Below are positions 10,801 through 47,993 of a DNA stretch of 48,189 bases, in pieces. Within the stretch, counting starts at the first letter, position 1. Every line of letters begins with the position of its first letter. The notes beneath the pieces were generated by a model. The model was given only the letters and a program-made list of their open reading frames with translations, made no database searches and had not been told where the DNA came from. Origin of the DNA: Fidelibacterota bacterium (GTDB lineage: Bacteria; Fidelibacterota; Marinisomatia; Marinisomatales; TCS55); assembly GCA_002724735.1 (NCBI GenBank), contig PBPT01000082.1, positions 105,016-153,204 of the forward strand. Direction: 5' to 3'. The translations under genes and the position numbers were made by a program.

Positions 10801-11403
10801 TATAAAATATTATTTGGATCAAAAGCACCGGCGGATTTACAAGTGAAATTTAAAATTGTTAAAAATAGAGATGTTGTTACAAACGATAACGAATTAAAAT
10901 CAAATTTGATAGAAGCTGTAAATAGATTCTTCGCAATAGAAAATTGGGATTTTGGAGAAACATTTTACTTCCAAGAACTTAGTGCATATATTATGACAGA
11001 ACTATCACCTAAGTTAGCTTCTGTTTTGATTGTACCTAATCAAGGCACACAATCCTTTGGTAGCTTATTTGAAATAAAATCAGAACCAGATGAGATTTTT
11101 GTAAGTGCCGCTACGGTTGCTGATGTTGAAACTATAACTGAAATTACTGCAAAGGAAATCCAAGCAAGTGGTACAGTTATCACAAGCTCGACTACAACTT
11201 CTACTACAACAGGAATAACAAGTTCAGCTTCTACATCTACTACAGCTAGCACAGGTGGAGGTTTAGTTACATCTAGTAGTTCAACAAGTTCAAGTAGTTC
11301 TAGCTCAAGTAGTTCTAGTTCAGGAGGCAACGGTTCAGGTAGCTCAGGAGGCAACGGTTCAGGTGGTTCAGGTTCAGGCGGCAGTGGAGGCTATAGCTAT
11401 TAA
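7801..11403 (+). CDS. gp6: Baseplate wedge protein gp6 with extended Ser/Gly-rich C-terminus
   Basis: A 1200-residue protein of the gp6 (baseplate J-like) family, which forms the ring of wedges around the hub. The N-terminus carries family segments: DWKRIYQAFRNADFQSYDF, SSEYLALIEMIAFLGQNLSF and ARENFLETAERRESILRLA. T4 gp6 is about 660 residues, so this one is nearly twice as long, with added beta-rich material from about residue 400 on. A later family-like segment is NRFFAIENWDFGETFYFQELSAY region near residue 1040, quoted here only by its core FGETFYFQELSAY. Residues about 1124-1200 are a Thr/Ser run followed by Gly/Ser linker. A good ribosome site (AAGAGGA, 7 bases) precedes the ATG, and the stop overlaps the giant gene start. 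Confidence 0.88.
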   Translation: MSSTDRQTRLLVSEDWKRIYQAFRNADFQSYDFDNLRRTMINYLRQNYPEDFNDYIESSEYLALIEMIAFLGQNLSFRVDLNARENFLETAERRESILRLARMLSYNPRRNQAANGLLKVNTIKTTESIIDSSGINLASTVIKWNDQSNTNYFEQFLKILNSALPVTNNIGNPLKSASIANVITQQYRFNATNTTSAVFPFTKRVEGVSTRYEVVSAGISGEDIVEEAPIPGNSPAFLFRDDGQGAGSSNTGFFMHFRQGKLDSSNFSITSPVPNQSVAIDVTDINDTDIWLYNVDSNGFETDFWTKIEAVEGNNIIYNNLFEGIKNVYAVNTRVGDRVNLVFSDGVFGNLPTGNFKIYYRTSANAGSVITPGAIGNVNIDIPYQNKSGGLETLTLGLRLNYTITNGSATESNTEIKNNAPATYYTQNRLITGEDYNIGPLSVSQEIIKTKSTNRISSGVSRYFDLKDSSGKYSNTSLFADDGVLYKEIFLEKTQFTFTTQSDIEGIINNTIEPILGAANTKNFYLDQFPKTIVSDLNAKWNQQSLATNQATGRFLDSTDSPYMTGTFTANSLRYIEPGALCRFTAPTGFHFMKDGTLMTGTADHFGSSTYKWAKVISVDGDGTTIDTVTDTGPIVFNDNIPSNAILDRIIPNFSRVLVDSIKVQIIDQTFAYKDFGLRYDLEDRQWKLITTENLNTILDFSTGKAGDSTGQNLDSSWFLYFKTDGETYNITYRNLKYVIESADEIRFYFDGIDKVYNPATGQVVRDKIDILNINTKPASTSPFTNDFSWSVSGAYRDPDGYVDSRKIEVQFIDLDDDGTVDNPEIFDEIVSPDTVTTLQKTIFQKKYTTSDGVEDFKYFDNASNEITIVANEAAIAPYSTRTEGQIFYLDDEKVFKKLQKSLNNTVLNSDYKAFIGRGGLKFHYVHVADSSYRIDPSASNLIDTYLLTKTYDNNIRKFIAGEVATLPMPQSNDELYRSYGASLEKIKSISDEIIYYPAKYKILFGSKAPADLQVKFKIVKNRDVVTNDNELKSNLIEAVNRFFAIENWDFGETFYFQELSAYIMTELSPKLASVLIVPNQGTQSFGSLFEIKSEPDEIFVSAATVADVETITEITAKEIQASGTVITSSTTTSTTTGITSSASTSTTASTGGGLVTSSSSTSSSSSSSSSSSSGGNGSGSSGGNGSGGSGSGGSGGYSY
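11170..11400 (+). repeat. Low-complexity Ser/Thr then Gly/Ser-coding tract at the end of gene 6
   Basis: The last 77 codons encode a Thr/Ser-rich stretch, a run of 12 serines, then Gly/Ser/Asn linker ending GYSY. Serine codons are mixed (AGT, TCA, TCT, AGC), so it is not a simple slipped microsatellite. Short DNA units such as TCAGGAGGCAACGGTTCAGG recur. Confidence 0.9.
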
Positions 11404-31805: not shown

Positions 31806-33281
31806 ATGGCATATCAAATAGACAGATACAATAATACGCTTTTAACAAACGTAGAAGATGGTACCGTTGACCAAACCACGGATTTAAAGTTCATTGGTAA
31901 GAATTATGCAGGTTACGGTGAAATTCAAAACGAAAACTTCCTGTTTTTGTTGGAAAATTTTAGTGGAGCGACAGCACCTGCTAAGCCACTAAGTGGTCAA
32001 GTTTGGTATGATAGCTCTGTTTCAAAGTTAAAATTTTATGACGGAACAAAGTGGAGAACAAACGGAGGTTCAGAAGCGGCTTCCACAGAACCAACAGGGT
32101 TATCAATTGGCGATTTTTGGTTCGATACAACAAATAATCAATTATATGTTTATAACGGAACAATTTTTGTTTTAATAGGTCCACAAAACGCAGGTAGCGG
32201 TATTACACAAATGCAAAGCTTATCTTTGCTGGACACAGGCGGTACTACAAGAAATGTAATAGCAGGAACAATTAATAGTGAAACTGTTATGCTTATTAGT
32301 ACTAACGAGTTTGATATTGCCGCAAGTAATTCAATAACAGGATTTGACAGAGTTAAAAAGGGTATTACTTTAGTTAATACACAATTAGCAAGTAATGGAG
32401 TAACAACACCAGCAGGACACTATTTTTGGGGTACAGCATCTGATTCGTTAAGATTAGGAGGTGTTCTTGCATCTAACTTTATACAACAATCATCAGGTGG
32501 TGCTAATACTGTGTTTACTACTACAGTTGAATTTCCTGATAGCGGAATTCAAATTGGCAATTCACAAGATTTACAATTATTAATTGAAAACGGTACAGAA
32601 GGTGTTATACAGAACGTTACTGGTAATAACAGTAAGATTAAAGTTAAAAGTACAAATGGATCTGGCACTACAACACACTCAGTAACATTTGATTCTACAG
32701 GAATTACTCCAGCAGTAGATAATACATTTGCTTTGGGTAGCGGATCATTAAAGTTTTCAAATGTATATGCAACTAATTTTACAGGTGAGGCTTCACAAGC
32801 AACTGCACTTAGAGTAGGTACAGATTTTAGAACCGCAAGTGCAAGTGCATCAAATAATACGGTAGCTGTAAGAGATGCAACAGGCAATATTGCGGCTAAC
32901 TTATTTCAAGGAACTGCTACACAGGCAAGGTACGCTGACTTAGCAGAAAATTATTTAACTGATGAAATATATCCAGTAGGTACAGCAATGGCTGTAGGCG
33001 GCGATGCAGAAGCAAGATCCGCAAAAGTTGGAGATTATTGTATTGGTGTAATATCTGAGAATCCAGCTTACTTAATGAACTCAGAAGCGGGGGGCCAAGC
33101 AATTGGCTTAAAAGGTAGAGTTCCTGTTAGGGTAAACGGTCCAGTTTCAAAAGGGCAAGCAGTTTTTGCTTGGAAAGACGGAGTATGTAGTACTATTACT
33201 ACGAATGCGTTAGTTGGTATTGCACTTGAAACAAGTACTGAAGATGGTGAAAAATTAGTCGAATGTGTACTCAAAGTTTAA
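31806..33281 (+). CDS. Tail fibre-like protein with G2-peptidase-like C-terminal domain
   Basis: A 491-residue protein. Residues 1-125 are the third copy of the shared module (IQNENFLFLLENF, PLSGQVWYDSSV, GDFWFDTTNNQLYVY). A shaft motif LGSGSLKFSNVYATNFTGEA resembles one in the first fibre. Residues about 376-491 begin YADLAENYLTDEIYPVGTAM and continue GDYCIGVISENPAYLMNS and LKGRVPVRVNGPVSKGQ. This resembles the C-terminal domains of cyanophage fibres and of G2-type intramolecular chaperones, which can cleave themselves after folding. No catalytic serine could be assigned, so self-cleavage is not claimed. Confidence 0.8.
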   Translation: MAYQIDRYNNTLLTNVEDGTVDQTTDLKFIGKNYAGYGEIQNENFLFLLENFSGATAPAKPLSGQVWYDSSVSKLKFYDGTKWRTNGGSEAASTEPTGLSIGDFWFDTTNNQLYVYNGTIFVLIGPQNAGSGITQMQSLSLLDTGGTTRNVIAGTINSETVMLISTNEFDIAASNSITGFDRVKKGITLVNTQLASNGVTTPAGHYFWGTASDSLRLGGVLASNFIQQSSGGANTVFTTTVEFPDSGIQIGNSQDLQLLIENGTEGVIQNVTGNNSKIKVKSTNGSGTTTHSVTFDSTGITPAVDNTFALGSGSLKFSNVYATNFTGEASQATALRVGTDFRTASASASNNTVAVRDATGNIAANLFQGTATQARYADLAENYLTDEIYPVGTAMAVGGDAEARSAKVGDYCIGVISENPAYLMNSEAGGQAIGLKGRVPVRVNGPVSKGQAVFAWKDGVCSTITTNALVGIALETSTEDGEKLVECVLKV

Positions 33282-35331: not shown

Positions 35332-35691
35332 ATGGACGAAAAGTTATCAAAAGCATTAGACTTTTCTAATTATATGGTTACTCTAAATAACCAAAAAAGA
35401 CTACTTAACGAAAAATATGCAGAAAATTTATTACATTTTACTAATGGTGGACAATTTACTGTTACTAAAGAACTTATAAATTTTGTAAAACTACTAATTG
35501 ATAACCATCAAAACGACGATGTGGTTCTTACAGACGATAATGATATTCCTCTCATAATCGACGATATTGAAGCTTTTTACCAAGACATAATTAATGTTTA
35601 TTTTGAAGCGTCCAACTCTTATCACTCAGAATATATGAAATTAAAAACACAACGTAGTGTGGAGAACCTCGTCGATCATGCAGAAAAGTAG
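35332..35691 (+). CDS. Small acidic protein, first gene of the accessory operon
   Basis: A 119-residue protein that was not recognised. It is mostly helical in character, with an acidic middle (DDVVLTDDNDIPLIIDDIEA, residues 63-82) and a Lys/Arg-bearing C-terminus. No signal peptide, membrane helix, Cys pair or DNA-binding motif is visible. It has the best expression signals in the window: consensus promoter, 5' hairpin and AGGAGG. Its stop overlaps the following glycosyltransferase start by 14 bases. It may be a structural chaperone or a regulator, but no function can be assigned. Confidence 0.7.
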   Translation: MDEKLSKALDFSNYMVTLNNQKRLLNEKYAENLLHFTNGGQFTVTKELINFVKLLIDNHQNDDVVLTDDNDIPLIIDDIEAFYQDIINVYFEASNSYHSEYMKLKTQRSVENLVDHAEK

Positions 35692-36532
35692 AGGGGCATT
35701 ATTAATTGCTAAAAATAATACACAAGTTGATTACATAAAGCAAGCAGTTTTTTTAGCAAAACGAATAAAAAAGTTTCTTAATATCGGAACTTCAGTGATA
35801 ACAGATTCTACAGAATATTTAGAATCTGCATTTGATAGTTCTATATTTGATAAAGTTATTTCCTTGAATAGTCATTCGGAAAAAAATGAAAGATTATATT
35901 TTGATGGAGCTATGTATCAAAAACAAGCTACATTTAAAAATAGATCTAGAAGTAAAGCCTTTGATTTATCACCTTATTATGAAACTCTTCTTTTAGATAC
36001 TGATTATATTATTTCTAATAATTTATTAGGATCTTGTTTTAATTCTGATGACGATTTTATGATATATAAAAAATCCTCAGATATTGCACAAGTAAGAAAT
36101 GAACAAGAATTTAAATATATAAGCGATACTGGAGTTCCTTTTTATTGGGCTACATGTGTATTTTTTAGAAAAACTAATGTTAATAAAATATACTTTGATC
36201 TAGTAAAGCATATCGAAGAAGAATGGGATCATTACCGAAGAGCATACCAAATTACCTCTTCTCTGTTTAGAAATGATTTTGCTTTTAGTATTGCAATACA
36301 TATTATGAATGGATTTGCTCAAGGTACTTTCGCAAAAGAATTGCCAGGCAAAATGCTATACACAACAGATAAAGATATACTTTGGAAATTAGACGATGAT
36401 AAAATGATGTTCCTTGTTGAAAAGAAAGATTACATGGGAGAATATACAGCTTTAAGCACAAAAGGACAAACTATACATGTTATGAATAAATTTAGTTTAG
36501 GTAGAATGATAGACGAGGTAGAAAATGTCTAA
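35678..36532 (+). CDS. Putative GT-A glycosyltransferase, paralogue 1
   Basis: A 284-residue protein from the ATG at 35678. An in-frame GTG at 35657 would add seven residues but is less likely; GGAG at 35661-35664 fits the ATG, though at a longish spacing. The N-terminus ALLIAKNNTQVDYIKQAVFLA matches the next gene (its core only: NxxxVxYxKQAxxLA). LLLDTDYIIS carries a DxD motif (D107, D109), the metal and nucleotide-sugar site of GT-A enzymes. There is no signal peptide or membrane helix, so it should be cytoplasmic. The sugar donor and acceptor cannot be predicted. It overlaps both neighbours. Confidence 0.7.
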   Translation: MQKSRGALLIAKNNTQVDYIKQAVFLAKRIKKFLNIGTSVITDSTEYLESAFDSSIFDKVISLNSHSEKNERLYFDGAMYQKQATFKNRSRSKAFDLSPYYETLLLDTDYIISNNLLGSCFNSDDDFMIYKKSSDIAQVRNEQEFKYISDTGVPFYWATCVFFRKTNVNKIYFDLVKHIEEEWDHYRRAYQITSSLFRNDFAFSIAIHIMNGFAQGTFAKELPGKMLYTTDKDILWKLDDDKMMFLVEKKDYMGEYTALSTKGQTIHVMNKFSLGRMIDEVENV

Positions 36533-37364
36533 AGGTATACTAGTACTTGCACAAAATCTTTCTGAAGTAAATTATGTAAAACAAGCAGAAGTGCTTGCAA
36601 TGAGTCTTAAAGTTACTAATCCAGAAACTAAAATTAGTATTGTAACAAACGACAAAGTTGAGTTCAAAAATTTATTTGATAAGATAATAGAAATTCCATG
36701 GAATGATGACGCACAGTTCAGTGACTGGAAAGTTGAAAATAGATGGAAGCTTTATCATGCTAGTCCTTATGATAAAACTATTGTAATGGATACTGATATG
36801 TTAATCTTGCAAGATATAACAACATGGTGGAAATTTTTAGAAAATTACAAATTGTTTTTTACTAGTAGTGTTCTTACATATAGAGGAGAAATTGCAGATA
36901 CGCAATACTATCGAAAAGCATTTATTGCAAATAATCTTCCTAATCTTTTTGCAGGATTTCATTACTTTGAAAAATCAAATATGTCATTAGAATTTTACAA
37001 ACTTTTAGAATTGGTCGTACAAAACTGGCAGGCGTTTTACGAAAAGTTTTTAGAAGGAGTCACAAGACCTAAACACGTTAGTATTGATGTGTGTGCTTCT
37101 ATAGTAGCATTAATTTTAGATTGTACAAATGATATTACAAATGCTAAAGCAAGTTTTCCTACATTTACTCATATGAAAAAATATTGTCAAGGATGGGTTG
37201 ATGGGTCTGATAACTGGCAAGATAGAGTCGGCTTTTATATGTCAAGAGATTGTGATATTAAGATTGGAAATTATAACCAAACAGGTATCTTGCATTATAC
37301 TGAAAATGATTTTTTAGAAAAATCTCCAGTAATTGAAAGATACAGGAATTATTTAAATGTCTGA
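36525..37364 (+). CDS. Putative GT-A glycosyltransferase, paralogue 2
   Basis: A 279-residue paralogue of the preceding enzyme. The N-terminus GILVLAQNLSEVNYVKQAEV parallels that gene, and the DxD motif is in IVMDTDMLIL (D89, D91). A later acidic HYTENDFLE segment near the C-terminus is similar in place to metal-binding histidines of GT8-like enzymes, though this is weak. It overlaps the upstream gene by eight bases and the downstream gene by eight bases. Tandem DxD paralogues with different interiors suggest two successive sugar transfers. Confidence 0.75.
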   Translation: MSKGILVLAQNLSEVNYVKQAEVLAMSLKVTNPETKISIVTNDKVEFKNLFDKIIEIPWNDDAQFSDWKVENRWKLYHASPYDKTIVMDTDMLILQDITTWWKFLENYKLFFTSSVLTYRGEIADTQYYRKAFIANNLPNLFAGFHYFEKSNMSLEFYKLLELVVQNWQAFYEKFLEGVTRPKHVSIDVCASIVALILDCTNDITNAKASFPTFTHMKKYCQGWVDGSDNWQDRVGFYMSRDCDIKIGNYNQTGILHYTENDFLEKSPVIERYRNYLNV

Positions 37365-38691
37365 TTTAAGCGAATTATTAAAAGCACTTACTACTAGTGT
37401 AGAAACTGATGATCTTACGTATGTATACTATTACAGCGATAGCGGAGAAATATTTAAAATATCAGGTGTAATAGATGAGGTTGAAGAAGGGCAAGAAATA
37501 CTTGAAGTACTTTACGATATTGCTAGTCCTATTCTAACTGGAGAAAAACGTACAACAGATTTTGTGGTCATTTATGATACTGCGTTAAAGCGTAAAACTT
37601 TAAAAGAAAAAAACTATCAAGATACGTTTAAAACTGCATCTGCTATGTGCTATCAAATACCTGTTATTGCAAAAAGCCTTGCAGGTCATTTTTCGTTATC
37701 TGAAATTTATGAAGATGTAAAAGTCTACATATGGGTTAAAGAGTTAGCTTATAAAAAAGATGACATAGTTTGGTATAATGATAATGTCTATAAATTACTT
37801 GCAGATAACGGAAAGGATAAAAGATGGAGCAAAAAAAATTCTAAGTTGTTTATTGAAAATGTATTCTTATCTGACATTCCTACGCAAAAGTTTTCAGTGT
37901 TAGAATTAAAATTTGAACAACAATATAAAGGTATACATGTTGATGTATGGTATGATGATTTAAATCATTTGGCAGGACAGCATGTATGGATAGGAGACTG
38001 TGTATATAAAATATTAGAAGACCAGCCCGCACACACAAATTTTGATCCAAAAAATGCAGAAATGCTAGTATCTAATGTAGCACTTAGGAACGACACAAAC
38101 AAAAATCTTACTTTTACACAAATTATCGATGATGGAAAATTATATTTAGATTTTAATAAAATTTATAGTGCAAAAATTATAGAATCTCATTATGATAAAA
38201 GTGCAGATGATATAGTTTATCATACAGATGAACGTCATATAATAGTTTGTAAAAAAGACTTTAAAATTCATATGGATACTTTTGACAAGAAAAAGTTTAA
38301 TTATTTAAAAACTGATTTAACATTACAAGATCAAAATACATTAAAAAACGGAGACAAAGTTTTACTAGGTACAAAATTATATAATGTACAGTTAAATAAA
38401 GAATTTGATATTATAGTAACTCAACATACTAATGAAAAATTCTGGCAACTGAATATACACCCCTCGACATTAAAATATTTTCAAACAACTAATTATGATC
38501 AAGATGACCTTTTGTACTTTAGTATTACTGCAAAACATGATCCTAATATACTTTATAGGTCATTGAAAATACCATTATCAATGTTAGCTGATAAATTAGT
38601 AATTCCGTTTAAATATGATGCAGAACATAAAGAAGATCTTAGTATATATACAGCAAAGTATTTTGATAGTTATGGACACGAAATTTTATGA
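37357..38691 (+). CDS. Unknown protein with carbohydrate-binding-module-like repeats
   Basis: A 444-residue protein with no recognised catalytic motif. Residues about 130-150 (YKKDDIVWYNDNVYKLLAD) and 205-238 (AGQHVWIGDCVYKILED, then NFDPKNAEML) follow the pattern of short CBM5/12-like modules, in which aromatic residues bind polysaccharide. A weaker unit is NGDKVLLGTKLYNVQL near residue 340. The N-terminal 120 residues and the C-terminal third are beta-rich and unassigned. Similar units occur several times in the giant virion protein. No signal peptide is present. Sitting among glycosyltransferases, it may bind the glycan being built, or be a virion decoration. Confidence 0.6.
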   Translation: MSDLSELLKALTTSVETDDLTYVYYYSDSGEIFKISGVIDEVEEGQEILEVLYDIASPILTGEKRTTDFVVIYDTALKRKTLKEKNYQDTFKTASAMCYQIPVIAKSLAGHFSLSEIYEDVKVYIWVKELAYKKDDIVWYNDNVYKLLADNGKDKRWSKKNSKLFIENVFLSDIPTQKFSVLELKFEQQYKGIHVDVWYDDLNHLAGQHVWIGDCVYKILEDQPAHTNFDPKNAEMLVSNVALRNDTNKNLTFTQIIDDGKLYLDFNKIYSAKIIESHYDKSADDIVYHTDERHIIVCKKDFKIHMDTFDKKKFNYLKTDLTLQDQNTLKNGDKVLLGTKLYNVQLNKEFDIIVTQHTNEKFWQLNIHPSTLKYFQTTNYDQDDLLYFSITAKHDPNILYRSLKIPLSMLADKLVIPFKYDAEHKEDLSIYTAKYFDSYGHEIL

Positions 38692-39611
38692 CCAACAGAT
38701 TTAAAGTAACAGACTATGACATAATTTATTTAAGTTATGACGAACCTAATGCAGAAAAAAACTATGCAGACTTATGCAGTAAAGTTCCGTGGGCAAAACG
38801 TATACATGGAGTTGAAGGTTCTGACGCCGCACACAAAGCTTGTGCTGAAATAAGTGAAACTGATAGATTTATAACCGTAGATGGAGATAACATAATAGAT
38901 CCTAAATTTATTCAGCAAGTTATAGATTTTGATGAACATGAAGATCTACAGCATAGTGTTATAAGTTGGGCAGGATATAATGTAGTCAATGGTTTAATGT
39001 ATGGCAATGGCGGACTTAAATGTTGGCCAAAGAAATTTGTACTTAATATGCGTACCCATGAAAATGCTGATCCTAATAATGCTCATGCACAAGTTGACTT
39101 TTGTTGGGATATAAATTATATTCAAATGAATAGTTGTTTTAGTTATGTATATAATAACCATACTGCCCAGCAAGCTTGGAGAGCAGGCTTTCGTGAAGGT
39201 GTGAAAATGGCATTAGATAGAGGAGTGCGTGTTACGAAAGAGGAGTTTGCAAATTTACACTGGAAGAACTTACATAGGTTGTATATTTGGTTAACAGTTG
39301 GCAGCGATGCAAAAAATGGGCTTTGGGCAATATACGGAGCAAGAGAAGGCCTATACAAAACAATGGCTACAGAATGGGACTACATAAATGTAAGAGATTT
39401 TGAATATTTGAACAACTATTGGAATGAGCAAGTAAAAATAGAAGAGGAAAATCTTTTAGATGCAGTGAAAAAATTAGGTAGCAAATTATTAAATGAATTA
39501 GATGTTCCTATCCCAGTAGATCCTTTTAGTGAAGAACAAAGCAAATTTTTTAAAACTGTTTATCAAAATCCTGGTAGGATGGCAAATCAATTCATTGATA
39601 TTGAGAGATAA
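38688..39611 (+). CDS. Putative GT-A/family 2-like glycosyltransferase
   Basis: A 307-residue protein. The N-terminal DYDIIYLSYDEPNAEKNYAD is a nucleotide-binding beta-alpha start typical of family 2-like enzymes, and FITVDGDNIIDPKF carries a DxD-type motif (D65, D67). YGNGGLKCWPKKFV resembles the acceptor-loop segment of such proteins. A long C-terminal helical region (ENLLDAVKKLGSKLLNELD) is extra. It overlaps the upstream gene by four bases (ATGA) and ends two bases before the radical SAM gene. Substrate is unknown. Confidence 0.65.
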   Translation: MTNRFKVTDYDIIYLSYDEPNAEKNYADLCSKVPWAKRIHGVEGSDAAHKACAEISETDRFITVDGDNIIDPKFIQQVIDFDEHEDLQHSVISWAGYNVVNGLMYGNGGLKCWPKKFVLNMRTHENADPNNAHAQVDFCWDINYIQMNSCFSYVYNNHTAQQAWRAGFREGVKMALDRGVRVTKEEFANLHWKNLHRLYIWLTVGSDAKNGLWAIYGAREGLYKTMATEWDYINVRDFEYLNNYWNEQVKIEEENLLDAVKKLGSKLLNELDVPIPVDPFSEEQSKFFKTVYQNPGRMANQFIDIER

Positions 39612-39613
39612 AC

Positions 39614-41017
39614 ATGAGTCAAAGCAGTTATAATGCTGGAGCCGAATACGCTAGAGAGAAGCTAAAGCAAATTAGTTGTTCAATGTGTCTTGCAAAATGG
39701 ACACAAGTAACAATGCATTTGCATAATGGGCATACCCATAGCTGTCATCATCCTGCTCCTCATTTTATTCCTTTAGATGAAATAAAACAAAATCCCCATG
39801 CATTGCATAATACAAAACATAAAATAAAACAACGCCAACTAATGCTTGCAGGAGAACAACCAGAAGAATGCAACTATTGTTGGAATATAGAAAATTTAAA
39901 TCATGGGCATTTTAGTGATAGGCATTTTAAAAGTGGAGAAGATTGGAACGAAGGACAACTTGAAAAAATAAAAGCAAACCCTTTAGATGAAAATTTTTTA
40001 CCAACTTATGTTGAAGTTAGTTTTAATAATACTTGTAATTTTGCTTGTATGTATTGCAGTCCACAAATATCTAGTAAATGGATGGAGGATATTGAACACG
40101 GTGGAGCATATGACCTAGGAAATTATCAAGTCCATCATCTTGATTACTTACGCATTAAAAATCAAATACCAATTCCTAACAGAGAAGTTAATCCTTATAT
40201 TGAAGCATTTTGGAAAATATGGCCTGAGCTATATACTAATTTAAAAGTTTTTAGAATTACAGGCGGAGAACCGTTGTTAAGTAAACACACATGGAAAGTA
40301 TTAAAGTATATTCAAGATAATCCTAATCCAGATTTGATAATAGGAATAAACACAAATTTAGGAGTACAAGATGCTTTTATTGATAGATTAATACCTATAG
40401 CAAAAGATCTAATTCTTAATAATAAAGTAAAAAACTTTGAATTATATACAAGCGTCGAAAGTACAGGAGTACAAGCAGAATATATTAGAGATGGATTAGA
40501 TTATAAAAAGTTTATTAGCAATCTTAATAAAGTAACAAGCGAAATTCCAATGTTAGATTGGAAGTCAAAAACAGTTATTATGGCAACATATAATTTATTA
40601 AGTATTCCTAATTTTAGAAATTTGCTAGAATGGTTACTTGAATGGCGTACTAAACATGGTTCAGCTACGTGGAAAAAGTTATGGTTAGATATAAGTTATT
40701 TAACTTATCCTAACTGGCAAACTATTGCATTAGCTGATAATAATATGTTAGCTATAATGGAGTCTGATTTAAAATTTATGCAAGATCATAAAGAACAAGC
40801 AATAGGACATCACGGATTTCAAGATACCGAAATTTCAAAAATGGCAAGGGCTGTAGACTATGTGACGCAAAATATAAGCAAAGATAAAACAACTGAGATG
40901 ATGCAGTTTTATAATTTTTTTAATGCTTATGATTTGAGAAGAAATAAAAACTTTGTAAAAACTTTTCCAGAATTTGCAAATTTTTATAGTAGGTGCAAAG
41001 AGGTAGCAAATGCATAA
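39614..41017 (+). CDS. Twitch-domain radical SAM enzyme, copy 1
   Basis: A 467-residue protein. The radical SAM motif CxxxCxxC is C141, C145, C148 (TCNFACMYC), followed by FRITGGEPLL as the SAM-binding GGE segment. An N-terminal Cys-rich region (C22, C25, C44, C86, C89; CSMCLAKW and ECNYCW) looks like the auxiliary iron-sulphur 'twitch' region of a family recalled from phages and marine bacteria. Such enzymes use radical chemistry on peptides or sugars, and the substrate of this family is not established. It lies inside the glycan operon and is paralogous to the gene at 42984. Overlaps the next gene by eight bases. Confidence 0.85.
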   Translation: MSQSSYNAGAEYAREKLKQISCSMCLAKWTQVTMHLHNGHTHSCHHPAPHFIPLDEIKQNPHALHNTKHKIKQRQLMLAGEQPEECNYCWNIENLNHGHFSDRHFKSGEDWNEGQLEKIKANPLDENFLPTYVEVSFNNTCNFACMYCSPQISSKWMEDIEHGGAYDLGNYQVHHLDYLRIKNQIPIPNREVNPYIEAFWKIWPELYTNLKVFRITGGEPLLSKHTWKVLKYIQDNPNPDLIIGINTNLGVQDAFIDRLIPIAKDLILNNKVKNFELYTSVESTGVQAEYIRDGLDYKKFISNLNKVTSEIPMLDWKSKTVIMATYNLLSIPNFRNLLEWLLEWRTKHGSATWKKLWLDISYLTYPNWQTIALADNNMLAIMESDLKFMQDHKEQAIGHHGFQDTEISKMARAVDYVTQNISKDKTTEMMQFYNFFNAYDLRRNKNFVKTFPEFANFYSRCKEVANA

Positions 41018-42272
41018 AGTTCCAATATGGCATAGGACAGATTTAAACGACTATCCAGAGACTCCCGATGGTCAAAAGTTATACAAGTATCATTGTGGTA
41101 TTAATTTAGATTATTTGAATAATACTTACAATGCTCATGGTGATCCTGGTATTAACATAGGAGTAGCAGGTATACATAAAACAAGGGTATACGAAGATAT
41201 TGATTCAAATTACAAAGGAAAATATTACTATCCTTTTATATTGATGCAACCTATAGAAGGAGTACATTATGGTTCTGTGCCAGATAAACCTATTATAGAT
41301 ATTGAACCAGAACATATATTAAATATAAAAACAGGTAGATGTAAAATTTTAATTGTGAATACCATGGAAGGTTGGGATCATAATTCGTTCTTTAAAATTT
41401 TAATTGATGCTATCAAGAGTAAATATTTCCTAAAATATAATGATTTTGTAATACTGTCGGGCAATATGGAAGAAACCCAATATGGTACGCCTACTGTGTA
41501 TCATAATTGGTGGGAACAGCATCTACGAGAGCACGATTTGGGAGAACTATTAGAACAAGGTGTCCTAAGCATGAATAATTGGGAAAGGCCACACAAGTTT
41601 ATTTGTTTGAATAGAAGACCTCACGCCCATAGAATAGCAATTACAACACTATTACATAATTATAAACACAAAGGTATACTTACACTTGCTAAAAAAGTTG
41701 ACAACCATACAGAAGTTTTTGATAAAAATCTTAAACTTATGAATGAATACTATCCTGGATTAACAGCAAAGCCTAAAGCTATGAATCGTCTTCTTAAAGA
41801 TTTACCTTTGGAATATAATGACGGAGTAGACCCAAATACAGAAAATCCAGTACATGATGATGCCCCTGATAAATTTTATATGAGTTATCTACATGTCGTT
41901 ACGGAAACATTTGGGAGAGGATCACAAACTTTTTTTAGTGAAAAAGTTTTCAAACCAATTATATACTTCCAGCCTTTTGTATTAGTGGGTGCATATAATG
42001 ATTTGCATAGGTTAAAAAGTTTAGGTTATAAAACTTTTAATGGTATAATAGACGAAAGTTATGATGATATTAAGGATGACGAGAAAAGATTAATAGTGTT
42101 ATCGAAAGAAATAGGTAGAATTGTTTCTATGTCAAATGATGAAATTAATAATTTTTATCAAAGTTGCTACGACATCATGATGCACAATTTTTTCCATTGG
42201 ATATATAGGCAACAAACAATACATATTGATTTAAAAAATAATTTGTTAAGGAAGTTAAATGGATACGCCTAG
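41010..42272 (+). CDS. Transferase-like protein (FxCxN-HR/TEK family), copy 1
   Basis: A 420-residue protein sharing a motif set with the genes at 44416 and 47022: F-x-C-x-N-x5-H-R (F197, C199, N201, H207, R208), VTET (297-300), SEK (310-312), QPFVLVG (321-327) and DESYD (348-352). The set resembles C-terminal halves of GT-B glycosyltransferases, where an EK/E pair binds the sugar nucleotide; exact family unknown. The N-terminal half differs from its paralogues and may bind the acceptor. No membrane segment is visible. It overlaps the radical SAM gene by eight bases and the hydrolase gene by 14 bases. Confidence 0.6.
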   Translation: MHKVPIWHRTDLNDYPETPDGQKLYKYHCGINLDYLNNTYNAHGDPGINIGVAGIHKTRVYEDIDSNYKGKYYYPFILMQPIEGVHYGSVPDKPIIDIEPEHILNIKTGRCKILIVNTMEGWDHNSFFKILIDAIKSKYFLKYNDFVILSGNMEETQYGTPTVYHNWWEQHLREHDLGELLEQGVLSMNNWERPHKFICLNRRPHAHRIAITTLLHNYKHKGILTLAKKVDNHTEVFDKNLKLMNEYYPGLTAKPKAMNRLLKDLPLEYNDGVDPNTENPVHDDAPDKFYMSYLHVVTETFGRGSQTFFSEKVFKPIIYFQPFVLVGAYNDLHRLKSLGYKTFNGIIDESYDDIKDDEKRLIVLSKEIGRIVSMSNDEINNFYQSCYDIMMHNFFHWIYRQQTIHIDLKNNLLRKLNGYA

Positions 42273-42987
42273 TTTATTTGCATTTGGTTGTAGTTATACA
42301 TACGGACATGGTTTAGAAGACTGCTTCGAACTTTATCCCAATGGTAACAATGGTCCAGGAAAACTTCCTACAAGATTGGGTTACACAAATATAATTGCAA
42401 AGAAAATTGGTAGGAGGGTGATTAACTGTGCATCTCCTGGCTCAAGTAATAAATTAATTATGCATACTATAAACATGATAAAACAAGAAGAATATTATAC
42501 GGTTCATCAAGGAAAAAAACTTAAAAAATTACAAACTTATTGGAGAGAAAAAATTCCTGCTATGAATCCTGATACAGATGCTGTAATAATTCAATGGAGT
42601 TACATAGACCGACACTGTGTTTTAGATCAATATGCAGACGTGCAATTAGATAAAGTAGAAAATTTAGGACCGTGGGTAAAAAAAGGTAGATCTCCAAAAT
42701 ATTATAAATTTGTTTGGTCTACTTACGATGATCAAATTAGTGTATATCATTATATAAATTATGCTGATCTTACACTAAAAAACATGGGCTTTAAAAAAGT
42801 TTTACATTTGCCTCCGCCGTTGTTAAGTTTGCATAGAAGCAAATTAGAAAAGGGTTTGGTTATGGCAGATACAGATATTACACGACACTCATGTGATAAG
42901 GCTTTAGATGGCGGCCATCCAGGTCCTCTATCACAACAAGCGTATGCTGAACATTTGTTAGAGGATTATGCTGAATATTTAAAATGA
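42259..42987 (+). CDS. SGNH/GDSL-like hydrolase, copy 1
   Basis: A 242-residue protein with SGNH-family blocks: FAFGCSYT with nucleophile S12, NCASPGSSN with G61 and N64 as oxyanion candidates, and a C-terminal DGGHPG with D217 and H220 (DxxH). The usual chemistry is ester hydrolysis or acyl transfer, for example removal of O-acetyl groups from polysaccharide. No signal peptide is visible, so it would act in the cytoplasm or in the virion. Overlaps the transferase-like gene by 14 bases and the second radical SAM gene by four bases (ATGA). Confidence 0.75.
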   Translation: MDTPSLFAFGCSYTYGHGLEDCFELYPNGNNGPGKLPTRLGYTNIIAKKIGRRVINCASPGSSNKLIMHTINMIKQEEYYTVHQGKKLKKLQTYWREKIPAMNPDTDAVIIQWSYIDRHCVLDQYADVQLDKVENLGPWVKKGRSPKYYKFVWSTYDDQISVYHYINYADLTLKNMGFKKVLHLPPPLLSLHRSKLEKGLVMADTDITRHSCDKALDGGHPGPLSQQAYAEHLLEDYAEYLK

Positions 42988-44438
42988 AAAAGATAACTGA
43001 AATAGATCCGCAAACTGCCGCACAGCAAGTATTGCCCATGTTGGATGAAATATCTCCTAGCATGTGCATGGCTAAATGGTTGTGGTCAAGTATCCATTTG
43101 ACTAATGGTCTTACTAATAGTTGTTTTTTACCTCCGCTACACAAAATTGATCCAAAAGCAGTAGAAAATAATCCAAGAGCTTTACACAATACACCAGAGA
43201 AAAAAGCACAACGTAAAATGATGCTCAAAGGAGAACAACCAGAAGGATGTAATAGTTGTTGGAAAGTAGAAGCTCAAGGTAAACAACTTAGTGATCGTGC
43301 TTATCGCAGTTCAGAGCCCTGGGCACAACAAGGATGGGAAGAAGTTATTGCTACTGGTTCCGAAGGGGACATTGATCCAACATATTTAGAAGTAAATTTT
43401 AATCATGCTTGCAATCTTGCATGTAGTTACTGTAGTCCTCATTTGAGTAGTAAGTGGGCAGAAGATATTGAGCAAAATGGTCCATATCCTACTAAAGTTC
43501 CACACAATAGTATTGAATATTTTAAGAGCATAGGACATTATCCTATTCCAAACAGAGAACACAATCCTTATGTGGAAGCTTTTTGGAAATGGTGGCCTGA
43601 GTTATATCCTAAATTAAAACATTTTAGGATGACCGGAGGTGAGCCTTTAATGGATAAAAATACATTTCGTGTATTAGATTATGTCTTAGATCATCCACGA
43701 GATGATCTTAATATTAGCATCACCTCAAATGCAAGTGTTCCAAAAAAAAATTGGGATAGGTTTGTAGATACAGTAAGTTTCATAGATGAATATAAAAAAT
43801 TAGAAAGCTTTAGGCTGTATGTAAGTGTAGACGGATGGGGAGAACAAGCCGAATATATGCGTGACGGTTTAGATTTTGAGCTTCTATGGAATAATGTAAA
43901 CAATTATTTAACTAGAACCAAAGACGGCCTAGTAACTTTTATTGTTACATTAAATATGTTGAGTATGCCAAGTGTTAAAAAACTAATGCAAGGTATTCTT
44001 GAATTACAACGTATACATAATGTAAAAAAAACAAGGCGTGATGATAATGGAAAGTTGACATACTATGGCAACCATAGAGTATTTGTGGACACACCAGCTT
44101 TACATTATCCTGCTTGGCAAAGTTTAAAAGTATTGCCAGAGGAATTTTGGCATTACGGGGATGAGTGTTTAGAATTTATGAAAGCTAATACTGATAAACA
44201 ACGTGAAAGTCGCTGGGTTGGATTCAAACCACATCAAATTAAGCGTTTTGAAAGAAGTTTAGATTTTATGAAGCAAGGATTTCCTACAGAACAAGACAAA
44301 ATAAATGCACAGGAGAATTTTGTTAGATTTTTTGAAGAATACGATAAAAGAAGAAATTTAAATTTTCATAAAACATTTGTTGAATTTAGTCCTTATGTAA
44401 AAAGATGGAAGAAAAATGCGATACTCACATCATCATAA
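42984..44438 (+). CDS. Twitch-domain radical SAM enzyme, copy 2
   Basis: A 484-residue paralogue of the protein at 39614. The radical SAM cysteines are C143, C147, C150 (ACNLACSYC) and the GGE segment is FRMTGGEPLM. N-terminal auxiliary cysteines are C28, C47, C89 and C92; the extra cysteine at the first cluster of copy 1 (C22) has no counterpart here, so auxiliary cluster binding may differ. Conserved stretches are MxAKW, NNPRALHNTPEKKAQRKMM, LKGEQPEGCNSCW and SSKWAEDIEQNGPY. It overlaps the downstream transferase-like gene by 23 bases, one of the longest overlaps in the operon. Confidence 0.85.
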   Translation: MKKITEIDPQTAAQQVLPMLDEISPSMCMAKWLWSSIHLTNGLTNSCFLPPLHKIDPKAVENNPRALHNTPEKKAQRKMMLKGEQPEGCNSCWKVEAQGKQLSDRAYRSSEPWAQQGWEEVIATGSEGDIDPTYLEVNFNHACNLACSYCSPHLSSKWAEDIEQNGPYPTKVPHNSIEYFKSIGHYPIPNREHNPYVEAFWKWWPELYPKLKHFRMTGGEPLMDKNTFRVLDYVLDHPRDDLNISITSNASVPKKNWDRFVDTVSFIDEYKKLESFRLYVSVDGWGEQAEYMRDGLDFELLWNNVNNYLTRTKDGLVTFIVTLNMLSMPSVKKLMQGILELQRIHNVKKTRRDDNGKLTYYGNHRVFVDTPALHYPAWQSLKVLPEEFWHYGDECLEFMKANTDKQRESRWVGFKPHQIKRFERSLDFMKQGFPTEQDKINAQENFVRFFEEYDKRRNLNFHKTFVEFSPYVKRWKKNAILTSS

Positions 44439-45711
44439 TCTATTAGAAGAACATGACTTGCTTAATCCGAACAATACAGGACTGTATAGCAACTACCCTC
44501 TAGGACCTGCTTGGTTCCCTTTACGAGAAAAAACAAAGCAACAAGAAGGTTGGGACAGCATGTTTATTGATTTAGGTAAAACTTTTTTCAAAGGTGTAAA
44601 TAATCCTTATGCTGTATATATGGGTGTGGGAAAAATAGGTTATCTAGAATTACCAAGCACAATACTTGATGTAAAACCTAGGAATAGAATTAGGAAAAAA
44701 GGATTAAAAATTTATTTGCTAGAACCTCTAAGTACTTACAATATCCATGAAACTAATCCTCAGCACATTTATGCAAATTATGAATTAGACGATATTGCAG
44801 ATATTAGAGCTAGGGAGTTAGATAGTATTTCTATATTTGCAGAACGTAATGAACTTCCAGATGTAACAGTTTATGCTCCTGATTATAGAATAAATGAATT
44901 TTTTGGAATGACATATCCTAACCTAAATTTATATTGTTCACCTGTTGGTTGGATATATCCTGCAACTATGAAAATAGATATAGACATTCCAGAAAAAACT
45001 AGTATACGTGCAAAATTTTGGTGCGGTAATTGGAAGTATGGCGCTCATAGGCATTTAATTGCATCATACCTTGCTGGAAGATTTGATTCTAATGAAATAA
45101 ATTTAAGTTGGATATACAGTTCTAGTCCATCTATGCTAAAAAATAATTTATGGTTTAATTTAAAAAAATTAAAAAAATGGGAAAATCCTATTTTAAATGG
45201 TGCTCAAAAATTAGATTTACTTGCTCCTCAAACAATGGGCGTAAAAATGAAACGTGCATTAGATATTACAGAACAAGCACCGGACTTACACACGAATACA
45301 AATCCTAAAAGCTACTATGACGAAAGTTTTTGTGCTATTGTTAATGAAACAAGGTTTGCTCAAGCTACAGGATTGCTTACAGAAAAAATAATGATGCCTA
45401 TGCTTAACTGTAAACCGTTTATTATGGTTGGCCCTCCAGGGAATTTAGAATATATGAAAAGATGGGGATTTGAAACATTTAGTGATTATTGGGACGAAAG
45501 CTATGATAAAGAAGAACAGCATGATAAACGTCTCGCAAAAATTTTAGGATTAATAGACTGGATAGGTTCTAAGAGTATAGAAGAATTACAAGACTTGTAT
45601 GAAAGAATGTTACCAACTTTAATGTTTAATCAAGTTAGAATTTTAGACTTACAAGAACAGTTATTAGCAGAACCTATTACAAAAAACATTTTATTCAAGA
45701 GGCTCGGATGA
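44416..45711 (+). CDS. Transferase-like protein (FxCxN-HR/TEK family), copy 2
   Basis: A 431-residue protein with the same spaced motifs as the gene at 41010: F201, C203, N205, H211, R212; NET (310-312); TEK (322-324); CKPFIMVG (332-339); DESYD (360-364). The N-terminal 190 residues differ. The ATG at 44416 lies 23 bases inside the radical SAM gene; a GGAAG ribosome-like site precedes it, and the next in-frame ATG is far downstream, so this start is preferred. It overlaps the acyltransferase gene by four bases (ATGA). Probably a sugar transferase, exact family unknown. Confidence 0.6.
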   Translation: MRYSHHHNLLEEHDLLNPNNTGLYSNYPLGPAWFPLREKTKQQEGWDSMFIDLGKTFFKGVNNPYAVYMGVGKIGYLELPSTILDVKPRNRIRKKGLKIYLLEPLSTYNIHETNPQHIYANYELDDIADIRARELDSISIFAERNELPDVTVYAPDYRINEFFGMTYPNLNLYCSPVGWIYPATMKIDIDIPEKTSIRAKFWCGNWKYGAHRHLIASYLAGRFDSNEINLSWIYSSSPSMLKNNLWFNLKKLKKWENPILNGAQKLDLLAPQTMGVKMKRALDITEQAPDLHTNTNPKSYYDESFCAIVNETRFAQATGLLTEKIMMPMLNCKPFIMVGPPGNLEYMKRWGFETFSDYWDESYDKEEQHDKRLAKILGLIDWIGSKSIEELQDLYERMLPTLMFNQVRILDLQEQLLAEPITKNILFKRLG

Positions 45712-46304
45712 TAATAAAAAATGACAAGCCATTAAAAATTATTGGGTATGCTGAAAGCACACTTACACAGGAAAGTTTGTTTTATGGAAAAAGTTTTGTT
45801 ATAGAAGATACTAGTCTTATGACTCCGCAAGAATTCAAAGTATTGAAAAACAAAGATGATTTTCAATATTTTATAGGATTTGCTTTAGACTTAAAAGAAA
45901 GGGAACAAACTATTGATCTTTTAGATGAATACGATAGTGATTGTGTTACATATGTTCATGATAGTGCTATAGTGTTTGACGGAGCAACTATAGGTAAAGG
46001 TTCTTGTGTTGCAAATTTTAGTTCATTAATGGCAGGAGCAACTGTAGGTAATCATTGTTTTATAGAAACTTACTGTTTAGTAAGCCACCAAACTACAATA
46101 GGAAATAATTGTATGTTACACAGCGGTACAATGATAGCAGGAAAAACAAAAATAGGAAAAAATTGTATGTTTAATTTCAAAAGTGCCGCAATTAACAATA
46201 TAGAAATATGCGATAATGTTACTCTTGGAGCTTTTAGTAGTGCAACTAAAAGTATTACAAAAGAAGGAATCTATGTAGGCACTCCTGCAAGACTTTTAAG
46301 ATGA
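45708..46304 (+). CDS. Hexapeptide-repeat acyltransferase, NeuD/PglD-like
   Basis: A 198-residue protein. The C-terminal half (about residues 85-190) is a left-handed beta-helix of hexapeptide repeats: AIVFDGATIGKGSCVANFSS, ATVGNHCFIETYCLVSHQTT, IGNNCMLHSGTMIAGKTKIG. H127 in LVSHQTTIG sits where NeuD/PglD-type enzymes keep their catalytic histidine, and GTPARLL is the typical end motif. These enzymes transfer acetyl from acetyl-CoA to sugars or sugar nucleotides; PglD acts on a UDP-4-amino-sugar made by a DegT-type aminotransferase, and such a gene begins at 47983. The N-terminal region lacks a clear dinucleotide-type glycine loop. Overlaps both neighbours by four bases. Confidence 0.8.
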   Translation: MIIKNDKPLKIIGYAESTLTQESLFYGKSFVIEDTSLMTPQEFKVLKNKDDFQYFIGFALDLKEREQTIDLLDEYDSDCVTYVHDSAIVFDGATIGKGSCVANFSSLMAGATVGNHCFIETYCLVSHQTTIGNNCMLHSGTMIAGKTKIGKNCMFNFKSAAINNIEICDNVTLGAFSSATKSITKEGIYVGTPARLLR

Positions 46305-47035
46305 AAATCCATAAAAAGAAAAAATTACTAATTACAAGTGGTTGTAGTTTTAGCGAAACTTCAAATCAAATGCAATCGTGGCCTATTCAATTAAATAGAC
46401 ACTTTCAGAATTTTGGATTAATATCAAAAGGAATGAGTAGCCAAGGCAACGGATTGATTGCAAGAAGTATAATTTATGAAGTAAGTAAAGCTCTTGAAGA
46501 TACTCTTCCTCAGAATATTATTGTAGGTATAGGATGGTCGGGTGCTGATAGGCACGAAGTTTGGGTAGATAATCCAACATGCCAACAATATAATAATACA
46601 GATGGTTGGATACAAAATCCTACTGGGTTTATTGATGGCACTAAAAGTTGGGAAATATTTAATCATCATTGGACCACAACAAAATCAAAAATTTTTTATA
46701 AAAATTTTTATACTGAGGTAGGAAAATTAATTGATACTATTGAGAATGTTTTAAGGGTACAATGGTTTTTAGAAAAACATAATATTAAATACTTTATGAC
46801 TAGAATGTGTGATTGGCAAGATAGCCTTGCTGAACATCATGCTGAAATAGGATATTTAGTAAAGCTTATTGATAAAACTAAATTTTTACCAGTAATGGGT
46901 ATGTATGAATGGGCCAGGGACGAATCAGGACTTCCTTTAGGCCCAGACGATTACCATCCAACAGTAGCACAACATATAATGTTCACTCAAGAAATTATAT
47001 TGCCATTTTTGAAAAAGACGTATGATTTATCTTAA
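46301..47035 (+). CDS. SGNH/GDSL-like hydrolase, copy 2
   Basis: A 244-residue protein with SGNH blocks: LLITSGCSFSE with nucleophile S16, SKGMSSQGNG with G44 and N50, and DDYHPT with D216 and H219 (DxxH). It is diverged from the hydrolase at 42259 but has the same length and block order. No signal peptide. In this copy of the module it follows the acetyltransferase directly, overlapping by four bases, so ester addition and removal (or acyl transfer) genes are adjacent. Overlaps the next gene by 14 bases. Confidence 0.75.
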   Translation: MKIHKKKKLLITSGCSFSETSNQMQSWPIQLNRHFQNFGLISKGMSSQGNGLIARSIIYEVSKALEDTLPQNIIVGIGWSGADRHEVWVDNPTCQQYNNTDGWIQNPTGFIDGTKSWEIFNHHWTTTKSKIFYKNFYTEVGKLIDTIENVLRVQWFLEKHNIKYFMTRMCDWQDSLAEHHAEIGYLVKLIDKTKFLPVMGMYEWARDESGLPLGPDDYHPTVAQHIMFTQEIILPFLKKTYDLS

Positions 47036-47993
47036 CATATGGAATGACATACACCCTATAGTGTCAAAACATGGTAATGATTACATGCTTAATAAATTAA
47101 TTGATTTAAATAAATCTGATGACATAGGAGTAATGTGTGCAGAAGAAGCAAGTATGCACGATATTCGCCCATTCCTACTTACTGATACTATGTCTAAGTT
47201 TAACAGATTATATATGGTTCAAGGAGGCTATGATAAAAGTTATTATAGTTTTTTAGATAGTTTTAAAAATCTTAAATTTGAAATTTGGCCATATTACTTT
47301 TTATATGAAAGTGTATACCATAATAATTCTGCGAACAACAAGCAACAAATAGACAGATTATTTTTGTGTATGAATTACAAGCCTAGAATACATAGGAAAA
47401 AATTATTAGATAGATTGGCTAAATTTAATTTACTAGATTATAATTATTACACTTGGCATCAACCTAAAGAAAGTAAATTTTACAAACCAGATTTATTTGA
47501 CGAAGATCAATACGAGTGGAAATATTGGAAACCTAAGCAAGTATACTTAGAAGGACAAACCTGGGATCAATATGCGCCACCAATACAAATGTCTAAGTGT
47601 GTAATTAATTTAGTAACTGAATCTTTTTTACATTGCCCTTTTATAACTGAAAAAACATGGAATTCTATTATATCAAAAAAACCTTTTATAATTTTAGGAA
47701 ATGTAGGTATACACAGACATTTAGAAACACTAGGATTTAAATTACCAACTCAAATAAATTATTCATTTGATAGTGTTGCTGATAACGATTTGCGTATAAC
47801 AATGATTGTAGATGAAATAAACAGACTATCAAAAAAGAATCTACAAGAATTAAGTGAAAGTATGCAAGATGTAGTAGAACACAACTACATGAAAGCAATA
47901 GATATCGTTAAAACAGAAAAACAGTCTAAGCACGTATATATACATTACAATAAAATAATAGATAGGGCAAAGGATAAGGCAAATGGGATTTGA
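47022..47993 (+). CDS. Transferase-like protein (FxCxN-HR/TEK family), copy 3
   Basis: A 323-residue, shorter member of the family at 41010 and 44416, with F114, C116, N118, H124, R125; VTES (198-201); TEK (209-211) and KPFIILG (220-226). The DESYD motif is replaced by a weaker NYSFDS. The N-terminal domain is about 85-90 residues shorter before the first motif. It ends in a Lys-rich helix. It overlaps the hydrolase by 14 bases and the aminotransferase gene by 11 bases. Confidence 0.6.
   Translation: MIYLNIWNDIHPIVSKHGNDYMLNKLIDLNKSDDIGVMCAEEASMHDIRPFLLTDTMSKFNRLYMVQGGYDKSYYSFLDSFKNLKFEIWPYYFLYESVYHNNSANNKQQIDRLFLCMNYKPRIHRKKLLDRLAKFNLLDYNYYTWHQPKESKFYKPDLFDEDQYEWKYWKPKQVYLEGQTWDQYAPPIQMSKCVINLVTESFLHCPFITEKTWNSIISKKPFIILGNVGIHRHLETLGFKLPTQINYSFDSVADNDLRITMIVDEINRLSKKNLQELSESMQDVVEHNYMKAIDIVKTEKQSKHVYIHYNKIIDRAKDKANGI

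Follow-up and report, generated by a model that had tools for sequence, protein, structure and literature searches.

In pelagimyophages, the host recognition cluster, which is situated between VrlC and gp14, carries radical S-adenosylmethionine (rSAM) cassettes among its glycosyltransferases and tail fibres, and the published view of similar islands is that they alter the O-chain of the host (PMC7029224). A T4-like marine genome combines twelve rSAM genes with an A-type Fe-S carrier (PMC5332604), and rSAM and glycosyltransferase genes are enriched in Tasman Sea phages (PMC7150976); statements about the cited papers refer to excerpts of them. Here we describe a comparable island at the end of contig C77 (153 kb) within bin G000 (2.36 Mb; assembly GCA_002724735.1), in a stretch of 48,189 nucleotides that we call the window. 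At positions 39614-47993 the window encodes, twice in the same order, an rSAM protein (rSAM-A, rSAM-B), a member of what we call the TEK family (TEK-a, TEK-b) and an SGNH-like protein (SGNH-a, SGNH-b); an acyltransferase gene lies within the second set and a third TEK gene, TEK-c, follows it.

The island is an rSAM-rich form of an already known type of phage island. Like the pelagimyophage cluster, it is a variable island of a T4-type phage, situated at the tail fibres, with several glycosyltransferases, sugar-nucleotide enzymes and rSAM cassettes (PMC7029224); tail fibres, glycosyltransferases and rSAM cassettes all lie within the structural region. It departs from the excerpted account in its rSAM subfamily, its TEK and SGNH proteins and the bacterial kin described below, and also in the size of the phage, which is large (a 335-kb contig). 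The A-type Fe-S carrier of the T4-like marine genome has a counterpart on that contig, C57 of the same bin (PF01521, 50.8 bits), whereas the excerpt of PMC5332604 draws no glycan or tail-fibre link. An earlier note on this DNA, made from its letters alone, had called the chemistry undescribed for any phage. For the chemistry and for the trio of genes this agrees with our search of the open-licence literature, in which no description of either in phages was found, but rSAM cassettes as such are already in print for pelagimyophages (PMC7029224).

We read the stretch as part of a phage-encoded, cytosolic glycan-building island, most likely with the tail fibres of the phage itself as acceptor; we hold this reading tentatively, with slightly less than even confidence. 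The glycan role of the island is well supported. Computation establishes the families, folds, co-occurrence and order of the genes and the separate ancestry of the rSAMs; the enzyme activities, their order of action and the acceptor are what we infer.

Enzyme families of the island

The AlphaFold2 model of TEK-a (pLDDT 83, pTM 0.85) is a predicted two-domain GT-B glycosyltransferase fold. When it is compared with known structures using VIA, the nearest include the GT10 fucosyltransferase 2nzw (Z 12.4; 265 aligned residues, root-mean-square deviation 4.7, 8% identity), T4 beta-glucosyltransferase (Z 12.2) and an exostosin (Z 11.2), and all 50 rows listed are glycosyltransferases (Z 9.5-12.4). 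The fold was modelled for TEK-a only, and TEK-b and TEK-c are placed by membership in the family's hidden Markov model (HMM). The overall fold is shared with GT10 alpha-1,3-fucosyltransferases and the GT-B superfamily, whereas the family differs from GT10 in that low identity and at the level of Pfam, where 37 members were scanned and not one reached E 0.1 with a glycosyltransferase family, GT10 included. Single-member Pfam matches (24 families, one member each) were judged to be chance, as was a PHROGs match of TEK-c at E 0.05. For the three window proteins NCBIfam gave no match and PHROGs none better than this, and sequence profiles of the PDB gave chance matches only.

The family is marked by the motifs NRxxRxHR, (T/S)EK and DESYD, the second of which resembles a GT10 motif, and by five residues (R208, G339, D352, R360 and N393) that are invariant in the 37 sequences. 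TEK-a shares 26% identity with TEK-b over the C-terminal 226 columns and 27% with TEK-c over 113 columns. The earlier label for these proteins, ‘FxCxN/TEK’, holds in part: the FxCxN cysteine is present in the three proteins of the window but is not family-wide, and TEK-a has SEK rather than TEK. Relatives are encoded in at least 582 stretches of viral contigs, and four queries found no TEK match among 50,697 cultured-phage records, in which the rSAM gives only weak Vibrio matches (20-24% identity). One related viral structure model of 788 residues is named UDP-glucose/GDP-mannose dehydrogenase and so may be a fusion. Long TEK proteins of 821-831 residues also occur (L053 14892-17357, L054 14874-17357, L073 14019-16514); that of L053 matches the TEK profile twice, which points to two fused transferase domains.

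The place of T4 beta-glucosyltransferase among the nearest folds could suggest that the transferases glycosylate phage DNA with hypermodified bases, and DNA glucosylation has been named as a role of phage glycosyltransferases in large aquatic phages (PMC12619734, excerpt). We consider this very improbable here, since several transferases, an acyltransferase and SGNH proteins together adjoin the tail-fibre genes; genes for DNA modification were not sought.

Both rSAM proteins of the window, which are 39% identical to each other, lie far above the cut-off of 170 bits for NF033640, a family of twitch rSAM proteins; further copies on C57 score 301.4 and 266. At other loci, rSAM-family open reading frames (ORFs) were assigned by our own profile and not by this cut-off. 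The CxxxCxxC motif (C141/C145/C148) and four N-terminal cysteines (C25/C44/C86/C89) are invariant in 22 of 22 sequences, and the N-terminal set is a putative site of an extra cluster in NF033640 proteins. We know of no reaction assigned to the family. For the model of rSAM-A (pLDDT 90), Foldseek ranks AprD4 first (E 8.5e-5, though the TM is only 0.27), an enzyme that dehydrates an aminoglycoside sugar, and PDB sequence profiles match MoaA only (E 0.003). By structure, rSAM-A is akin to the sugar-type enzymes AprD4, by that E value, and BlsE, by a VIA-align Z of 13.6, but unlike them in having 13-14% identity, in the low TM to AprD4 and in that peptide-modifying rSAMs score as high.

In the SGNH family the nucleophile serine of block I (S16) and the histidine of block V (H219) are invariant in 33 of 33 sequences. 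SGNH hydrolases are defined in part by an asparagine in block III; here that block has no conserved asparagine and instead an invariant arginine (R84), with a mean column identity over the 33 sequences of only 13%. Pfam matches among them at E 0.01 are to Lipase_GDSL (four), Lipase_GDSL_2 (two) and DUF6071 (eight). The enzymes appear to be soluble: no hydrophobic segment (19-residue mean of at least 1.6) was detected in 71 TEK or 66 SGNH proteins, and of the 265 rSAM-family ORFs 14 reach this mean and none reaches 1.9.

Ancestry of the repeated genes

The recurrence of the same order had been explained in the earlier note by duplication of a whole block, a working unit whose copies then diverged; paralogue trees showing that each pair had been acquired separately would refute this. 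With the close lineage (L008-L021) excluded, every gene of the three pairs matches a protein of some other phage or bacterium better than its partner in the window. The best outside matches score 433 (rSAM-A) and 489 (rSAM-B) versus 332 bits between the two rSAMs, 238 (TEK-a) and 201 (TEK-b) versus 66 bits, and 126 (SGNH-a) and 156 (SGNH-b) versus 18.5 bits, the two SGNH proteins having no detectable blastp similarity (E 2.9). These pairwise scores are the basis for SGNH ancestry, as the family is too divergent for a tree.

For the rSAMs, a tree with bacterial sequences was made (a quick search with SH-aLRT support, including two very long phage-like rows, L236 and L246). Grouping rSAM-A and rSAM-B as one clade in it costs 67 log units and is rejected by the approximately unbiased (AU) test (p-AU 0.0002); as far as sequences can establish it, the two have separate ancestry. 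For the rSAMs the tandem thus arose by convergence of cassettes gathered separately, and the same most probably applies to the SGNH and TEK genes. Besides the repeated order itself, duplication has on its side the phage-only rSAM tree, which accepts rSAM-A with rSAM-B (p 0.68) but equally rSAM-A with other first rSAMs (0.66) and rSAM-B with other first rSAMs (0.70). It also has the TEK tree, made without five long rows, TEK-c among them, in which TEK-a and TEK-b as sisters cost 26.5 log units and are not rejected (p 0.086). When the AU test is confined to rSAM-A and rSAM-B, or to TEK-a and TEK-b, of the window it is uninformative, because close orthologues break the pair. Given the rejected clade and the closer kin of all six genes elsewhere, which amount to the separate acquisition named as refutation, we regard block duplication as wrong for the rSAMs and unsupported for the other pairs, and give it next to no credence.

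Each of the top four outside matches for SGNH-a lies immediately behind a TEK gene, which at three loci (L096, L097 and the latter's near copy L137) is among the best kin of TEK-a; in L097 the pair comes after a GT2-like gene with no rSAM between. Several of the top outside loci (L096, L097, L100 and L101) have upstream genes in common with the window, about 47-71% identical, and so are its cousins rather than strangers.

The nearest outside kin of rSAM-B are in Bdellovibrionota, predatory bacteria to whose enzymes it is closer than to rSAM-A: it is 51% identical to the protein of L202 over 476 columns. Together with its phage orthologues it groups with five bacterial rows in a set of nine (99% SH-aLRT), nested in a set of 16 rows (95%) of which 12 are bacterial, 11 from Bdellovibrionota and one from Myxococcota; rSAM-A falls elsewhere. 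A search of 84,980 species genomes with the rSAM alignment gave 67 loci. On inspection by eye eight of these look phage-like and were excluded (L206 is one of the eight, although labelled bacterial in the tree), and the 59 judged chromosome-like comprise 49 from Bdellovibrionota, five from Pseudomonadota, three from Myxococcota and two without a phylum. Neighbourhoods were counted at the 55 of these 59 loci that were left once near copies had been dropped; the neighbours include glycosyltransferases and GDSL proteins. Since bacterial genomes harbour rSAM genes of this clade, exchange with Bdellovibrionota offers a route to the substrate.

Two further observations concern the bacterial loci. 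A protein that looks by eye like a nucleotidyltransferase (GxSDxD; L217 11333-12289) occurs within three genes of the rSAM at 17 of 55 Bdellovibrionota-type loci, and its look-alike at L186 (13762-14733) has no Pfam match. On a 917-kb Bdellovibrionia contig, eight rSAM-family ORFs lie within 11 kb (L207 107-11362).

Recurrence and gene order in other phages

Loci were sampled from the best 80 of 181 rSAM relatives and the best 80 of at least 582 TEK relatives, and when near copies were dropped 62 rSAM loci and 76 TEK loci remained. An rSAM is present at 56 of the TEK loci, an SGNH gene at 48 and both at 35; conversely, 33 of the rSAM loci have a TEK gene, 32 an SGNH gene and 24 both. In uncultured aquatic phages the three families thus co-cluster, although the cassettes are mostly shuffled. 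The adjacency that the earlier note proposed to look for is therefore found in other genomes, if loosely: exact rSAM-TEK-SGNH triplets occur at eight of the 62 rSAM loci, six of them of the window's lineage and two outside it (L032 and L082), and at four of the 76 TEK loci. The rSAM genes are often multiple, with two or more rSAM-family ORFs at 47 of the 62 loci, four or more at 23, and a maximum of eight.

Junctions between rSAM, TEK and SGNH genes overlap in 117 of 145 cases, a figure that is inflated, since each ORF was made to begin at the earliest start codon following a stop. When the labels of all genes are shuffled, TEK-SGNH neighbours (25 observed, 14.5 expected; reached in 0 of 1000 shuffles) and SGNH-TEK neighbours (25 versus 14.4; 2 of 1000) are in excess. 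When only the places of the three families are shuffled among themselves, rSAM-rSAM neighbours (30) are enriched (0 of 1000), and TEK-rSAM (six) and SGNH-rSAM (three) are depleted; thus runs of rSAM genes come first, followed by TEK and SGNH genes.

The genes ahead of these runs support the link to glycans that had been proposed from the letters of the window. Directly before the first rSAM, 48 of the 62 loci have a gene of a GT7 family and eight one of the weakly GT2-like family to which the window's own gene ahead of rSAM-A belongs (56 in all), and the nucleotide-sugar dehydrogenase family is present at 11 loci and a DegT-like family at eight. With the GT-B fold predicted for TEK-a, these neighbours bear out the glycan link. 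The motif WxWGxEDDD is found in all 45 aligned members of the GT7 family (three short pieces of the 48 were omitted), and the one member scanned with Pfam (L035 6571-7989) combines, as a fusion, a GT7 galactosyltransferase and a laminin-G-like lectin domain. The GT7 family is often present in two copies ahead of the first rSAM.

Acceptor and setting

In the proposed pathway, the nucleotide-sugar dehydrogenase, a DegT-like aminotransferase and the NeuD-like acyltransferase would make modified activated sugars in the cytosol of the infected cell, and soluble glycosyltransferases (GT2-like, GT8-like and TEK GT-B, with GT7 in relatives) would add them in turn to the acceptor. The twitch-type rSAMs would then use radical chemistry, for example epimerisation, dehydration or oxidation, to change the sugars or the point of attachment, and the SGNH proteins would set the acyl pattern. 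On phage tail fibres, most likely the acceptor, the glycan would serve to adjust binding or to protect the virion. In this reading the island is a mosaic whose cassettes were acquired singly, with one rSAM common to Bdellovibrionota, and not one duplicated unit. If this is correct, phages build a glycan by radical chemistry and so have a novel means of varying their receptor-binding proteins; it would also give a function to a large family of phage glycosyltransferases of which 37 tested members have no Pfam match. A bolder version, which we regard as unlikely, is that an rSAM-edited glycan made by a wholly cytosolic kit (GT-B, SGNH and up to eight rSAMs per locus) coats the tail fibres throughout a large group of uncultured aquatic phages, its rSAMs being traded with predatory Bdellovibrionota and possibly serving the same surface chemistry there.

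The argument for virion proteins, tail fibres first, as the target of cytosolic glycosylation draws on the soluble enzyme set, the place after the tail fibres, the Fe-S carrier and the lack of two families. No match to the flippase family PF01943 was found on C57 or C77 (the single match in the bin is on C10; other flippase families were not covered), and none to the priming transferase family PF02397 anywhere in the bin (other priming families were not covered). The same facts bear on the possibility that the island remodels the surface polysaccharide of the host during infection and blocks superinfection, feeding sugars and transferases into the host's O-chain pathway. This is the published reading for the glycosyltransferases of the pelagimyophage cluster (PMC7029224), and the nucleotide-sugar dehydrogenase and DegT-like genes fit it. 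Lacking those two families on the phage contigs and hydrophobic segments in the TEK and SGNH proteins, such a system would have to be wholly host-dependent, and the run of overlapping ORFs continuing from the tail fibres suggests late expression; we judge it somewhat unlikely.

Several results weigh against building a glycan on tail fibres as a joint function of the three families. Families named as tail fibres are present in the fetched flank of only 24 of the 62 rSAM loci; short flanks cut many, and the name itself was given to families 7 and 22 from one PHROGs-scanned member each, and to family 8, in which no scanned member has a PHROGs match, because of where its genes lie. Near the bacterial rSAM genes there is no significant enrichment of glycan-type neighbours (GT4 11 of 265 near versus 5 of 202 far, GT2 13 versus 6, GDSL 8 versus 3; each p about 0.2), and we do not count the gene neighbourhoods in Bdellovibrionota as proving that the rSAMs act on glycans. 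Shuffling among the places of the three families removes the excess of TEK-SGNH and SGNH-TEK neighbours (186 and 178 of 1000 shuffles reach 25), and rSAM-TEK neighbours (19) are unexceptional in both designs (14.0 expected and 84 of 1000 with all genes; 21.0 and 745 of 1000 within the three families). The shuffles thus establish clustering and rSAM-first order, not a fixed trio. Finally, on the rSAM-A model the peptide-modifying SkfB (VIA-align Z 13.7) and anSME (13.2) score level with BlsE, with MoaA at 12.7, a tie that leaves sugar, nucleoside and peptide all possible as substrate class.

Two alternatives take up these points. The families may be unlinked auxiliary genes that accumulate in a hypervariable region without acting together, as the fluid order, the rarity of exact triplets, the separate ancestry of the cassettes and the ordinary TEK-SGNH adjacency at fixed places would allow. 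We think this improbable, because the clustering exceeds that in all-gene shuffles, rSAMs come first, most junctions overlap, and kin of TEK-a and SGNH-a are still adjacent in L096 and L097 (and its near copy). Alternatively, the rSAMs may modify protein or peptide side chains of the tail fibres, with glycosyltransferases using the modified residues and the glycan being secondary; the location behind the tail fibres fits, and SkfB, anSMEcpe and SuiB are near the top in VIA-align, level with BlsE and MoaA. Only one of the 145 junctions exceeds 50 bases, which leaves little room for a precursor-peptide gene of the kind found in ribosomally synthesised and post-translationally modified peptide systems beside the rSAM (one elsewhere was not sought), and the GT7-family or GT2-like gene ahead of the first rSAM in most loci also speaks against rSAM action on peptides, which we likewise find quite unlikely. 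Tail-fibre glycosylation remains the reading that we prefer.

The genes upstream of the island include those of a baseplate hub and wedge, followed by a tail-collar fibre-like gene and structural genes, from which we read the phage as a large T4-type myovirus. Right after the tail-fibre genes, the island is a mosaic of sugar-attaching, sugar-trimming and radical-chemistry enzymes (Table 1), which together resemble a kit for an unusual glycan. Its eight ORFs are on the plus strand with the starts given in the earlier note, and all seven junctions between them overlap as described there, by 8, 14, 4, 23, 4, 4 and 14 bases; a gap of 2 bases lies ahead of the first. The acyltransferase is also borne out, as a NeuD-like hexapeptide type. 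The two GT8-like ORFs are 25% identical over 191 columns and are co-conserved before the island in relatives; the ORF at 36525 has no Pfam match and that at 35657 no NCBIfam match.

Table 1. Features of the window from the tail-collar gene to the end of the island
Feature	Positions	Strand	Evidence
Tail collar fibre-like ORF, precedes two tail-fibre/structural ORFs	27833-29893	+	PHROGs
Two tail-fibre / virion structural ORFs	29890-31758, 31806-33281	+	PHROGs tail fibre / virion structural matches
Two paralogous ORFs labelled GT8-like, without Pfam or NCBIfam name	35657-36532, 36525-37364	+	
444-residue protein, possible carbohydrate-binding patch	37357-38691	+	Pfam CBM_5_12 E 0.0093, under curated cut-off
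Weakly GT2-like glycosyltransferase, directly before rSAM-A	38688-39611	+	Pfam Glycos_transf_2 E 0.0091, under cut-off
rSAM-A, radical SAM with N-terminal twitch region	39614-41017	+	NF033640 303.5 bits
TEK-a, predicted GT-B-fold glycosyltransferase	41010-42272	+	AlphaFold2 model, VIA Z 12.4 to 2nzw
SGNH-a, SGNH-like hydrolase/esterase	42259-42987	+	GCSYT block, C-terminal HP motif
rSAM-B, radical SAM, nearest outside kin Bdellovibrionota	42984-44438	+	NF033640 340 bits; tree
TEK-b, TEK (GT-B) family	44416-45711	+	HMM family member
NeuD/PglB/VioB-like hexapeptide sugar acyltransferase	45708-46304	+	Pfam Hexapep 74 bits; TIGR03570 112.7 bits, under cut-off 160.8
SGNH-b (DUF6071), SGNH-like	46301-47035	+	Pfam DUF6071 33 bits, cut-off 27; motifs
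TEK-c, TEK (GT-B) family, short N-terminus	47022-47993	+	HMM family member

The fetched part of C57 matches the last 17.5 kb of the window in inverted orientation (99.87% over 17,515 bases). Past TEK-c it continues with further glycan-type genes, so the island extends beyond the end of the window: a DegT-like ORF (by eye), a third SGNH gene, a nucleotide-sugar dehydrogenase, a second GT2-like protein and two NF033640 rSAMs. All six NF033640 matches in the bin sit on C57 and C77, and only two of 199 genomes drawn from the bin's phylum, this bin being one of them, have a match above the cut-off. The presence of two near-identical phage contigs within one bacterial bin points to contamination of the bin by phage DNA, or to a single phage being represented by two strains.

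Other parts of these contigs are also unusual in content. A single ORF of 5265 residues occupies 11403-27200 of the window, between the baseplate and tail-fibre genes. Elsewhere on C57 (152796-165099; L006 2797-15100), inspection by eye found several 2-oxoglutarate-Fe(II) oxygenase-like ORFs and, in the same run, ORFs resembling a fatty-acid desaturase, an ATP-grasp protein and a B12-type radical SAM protein.

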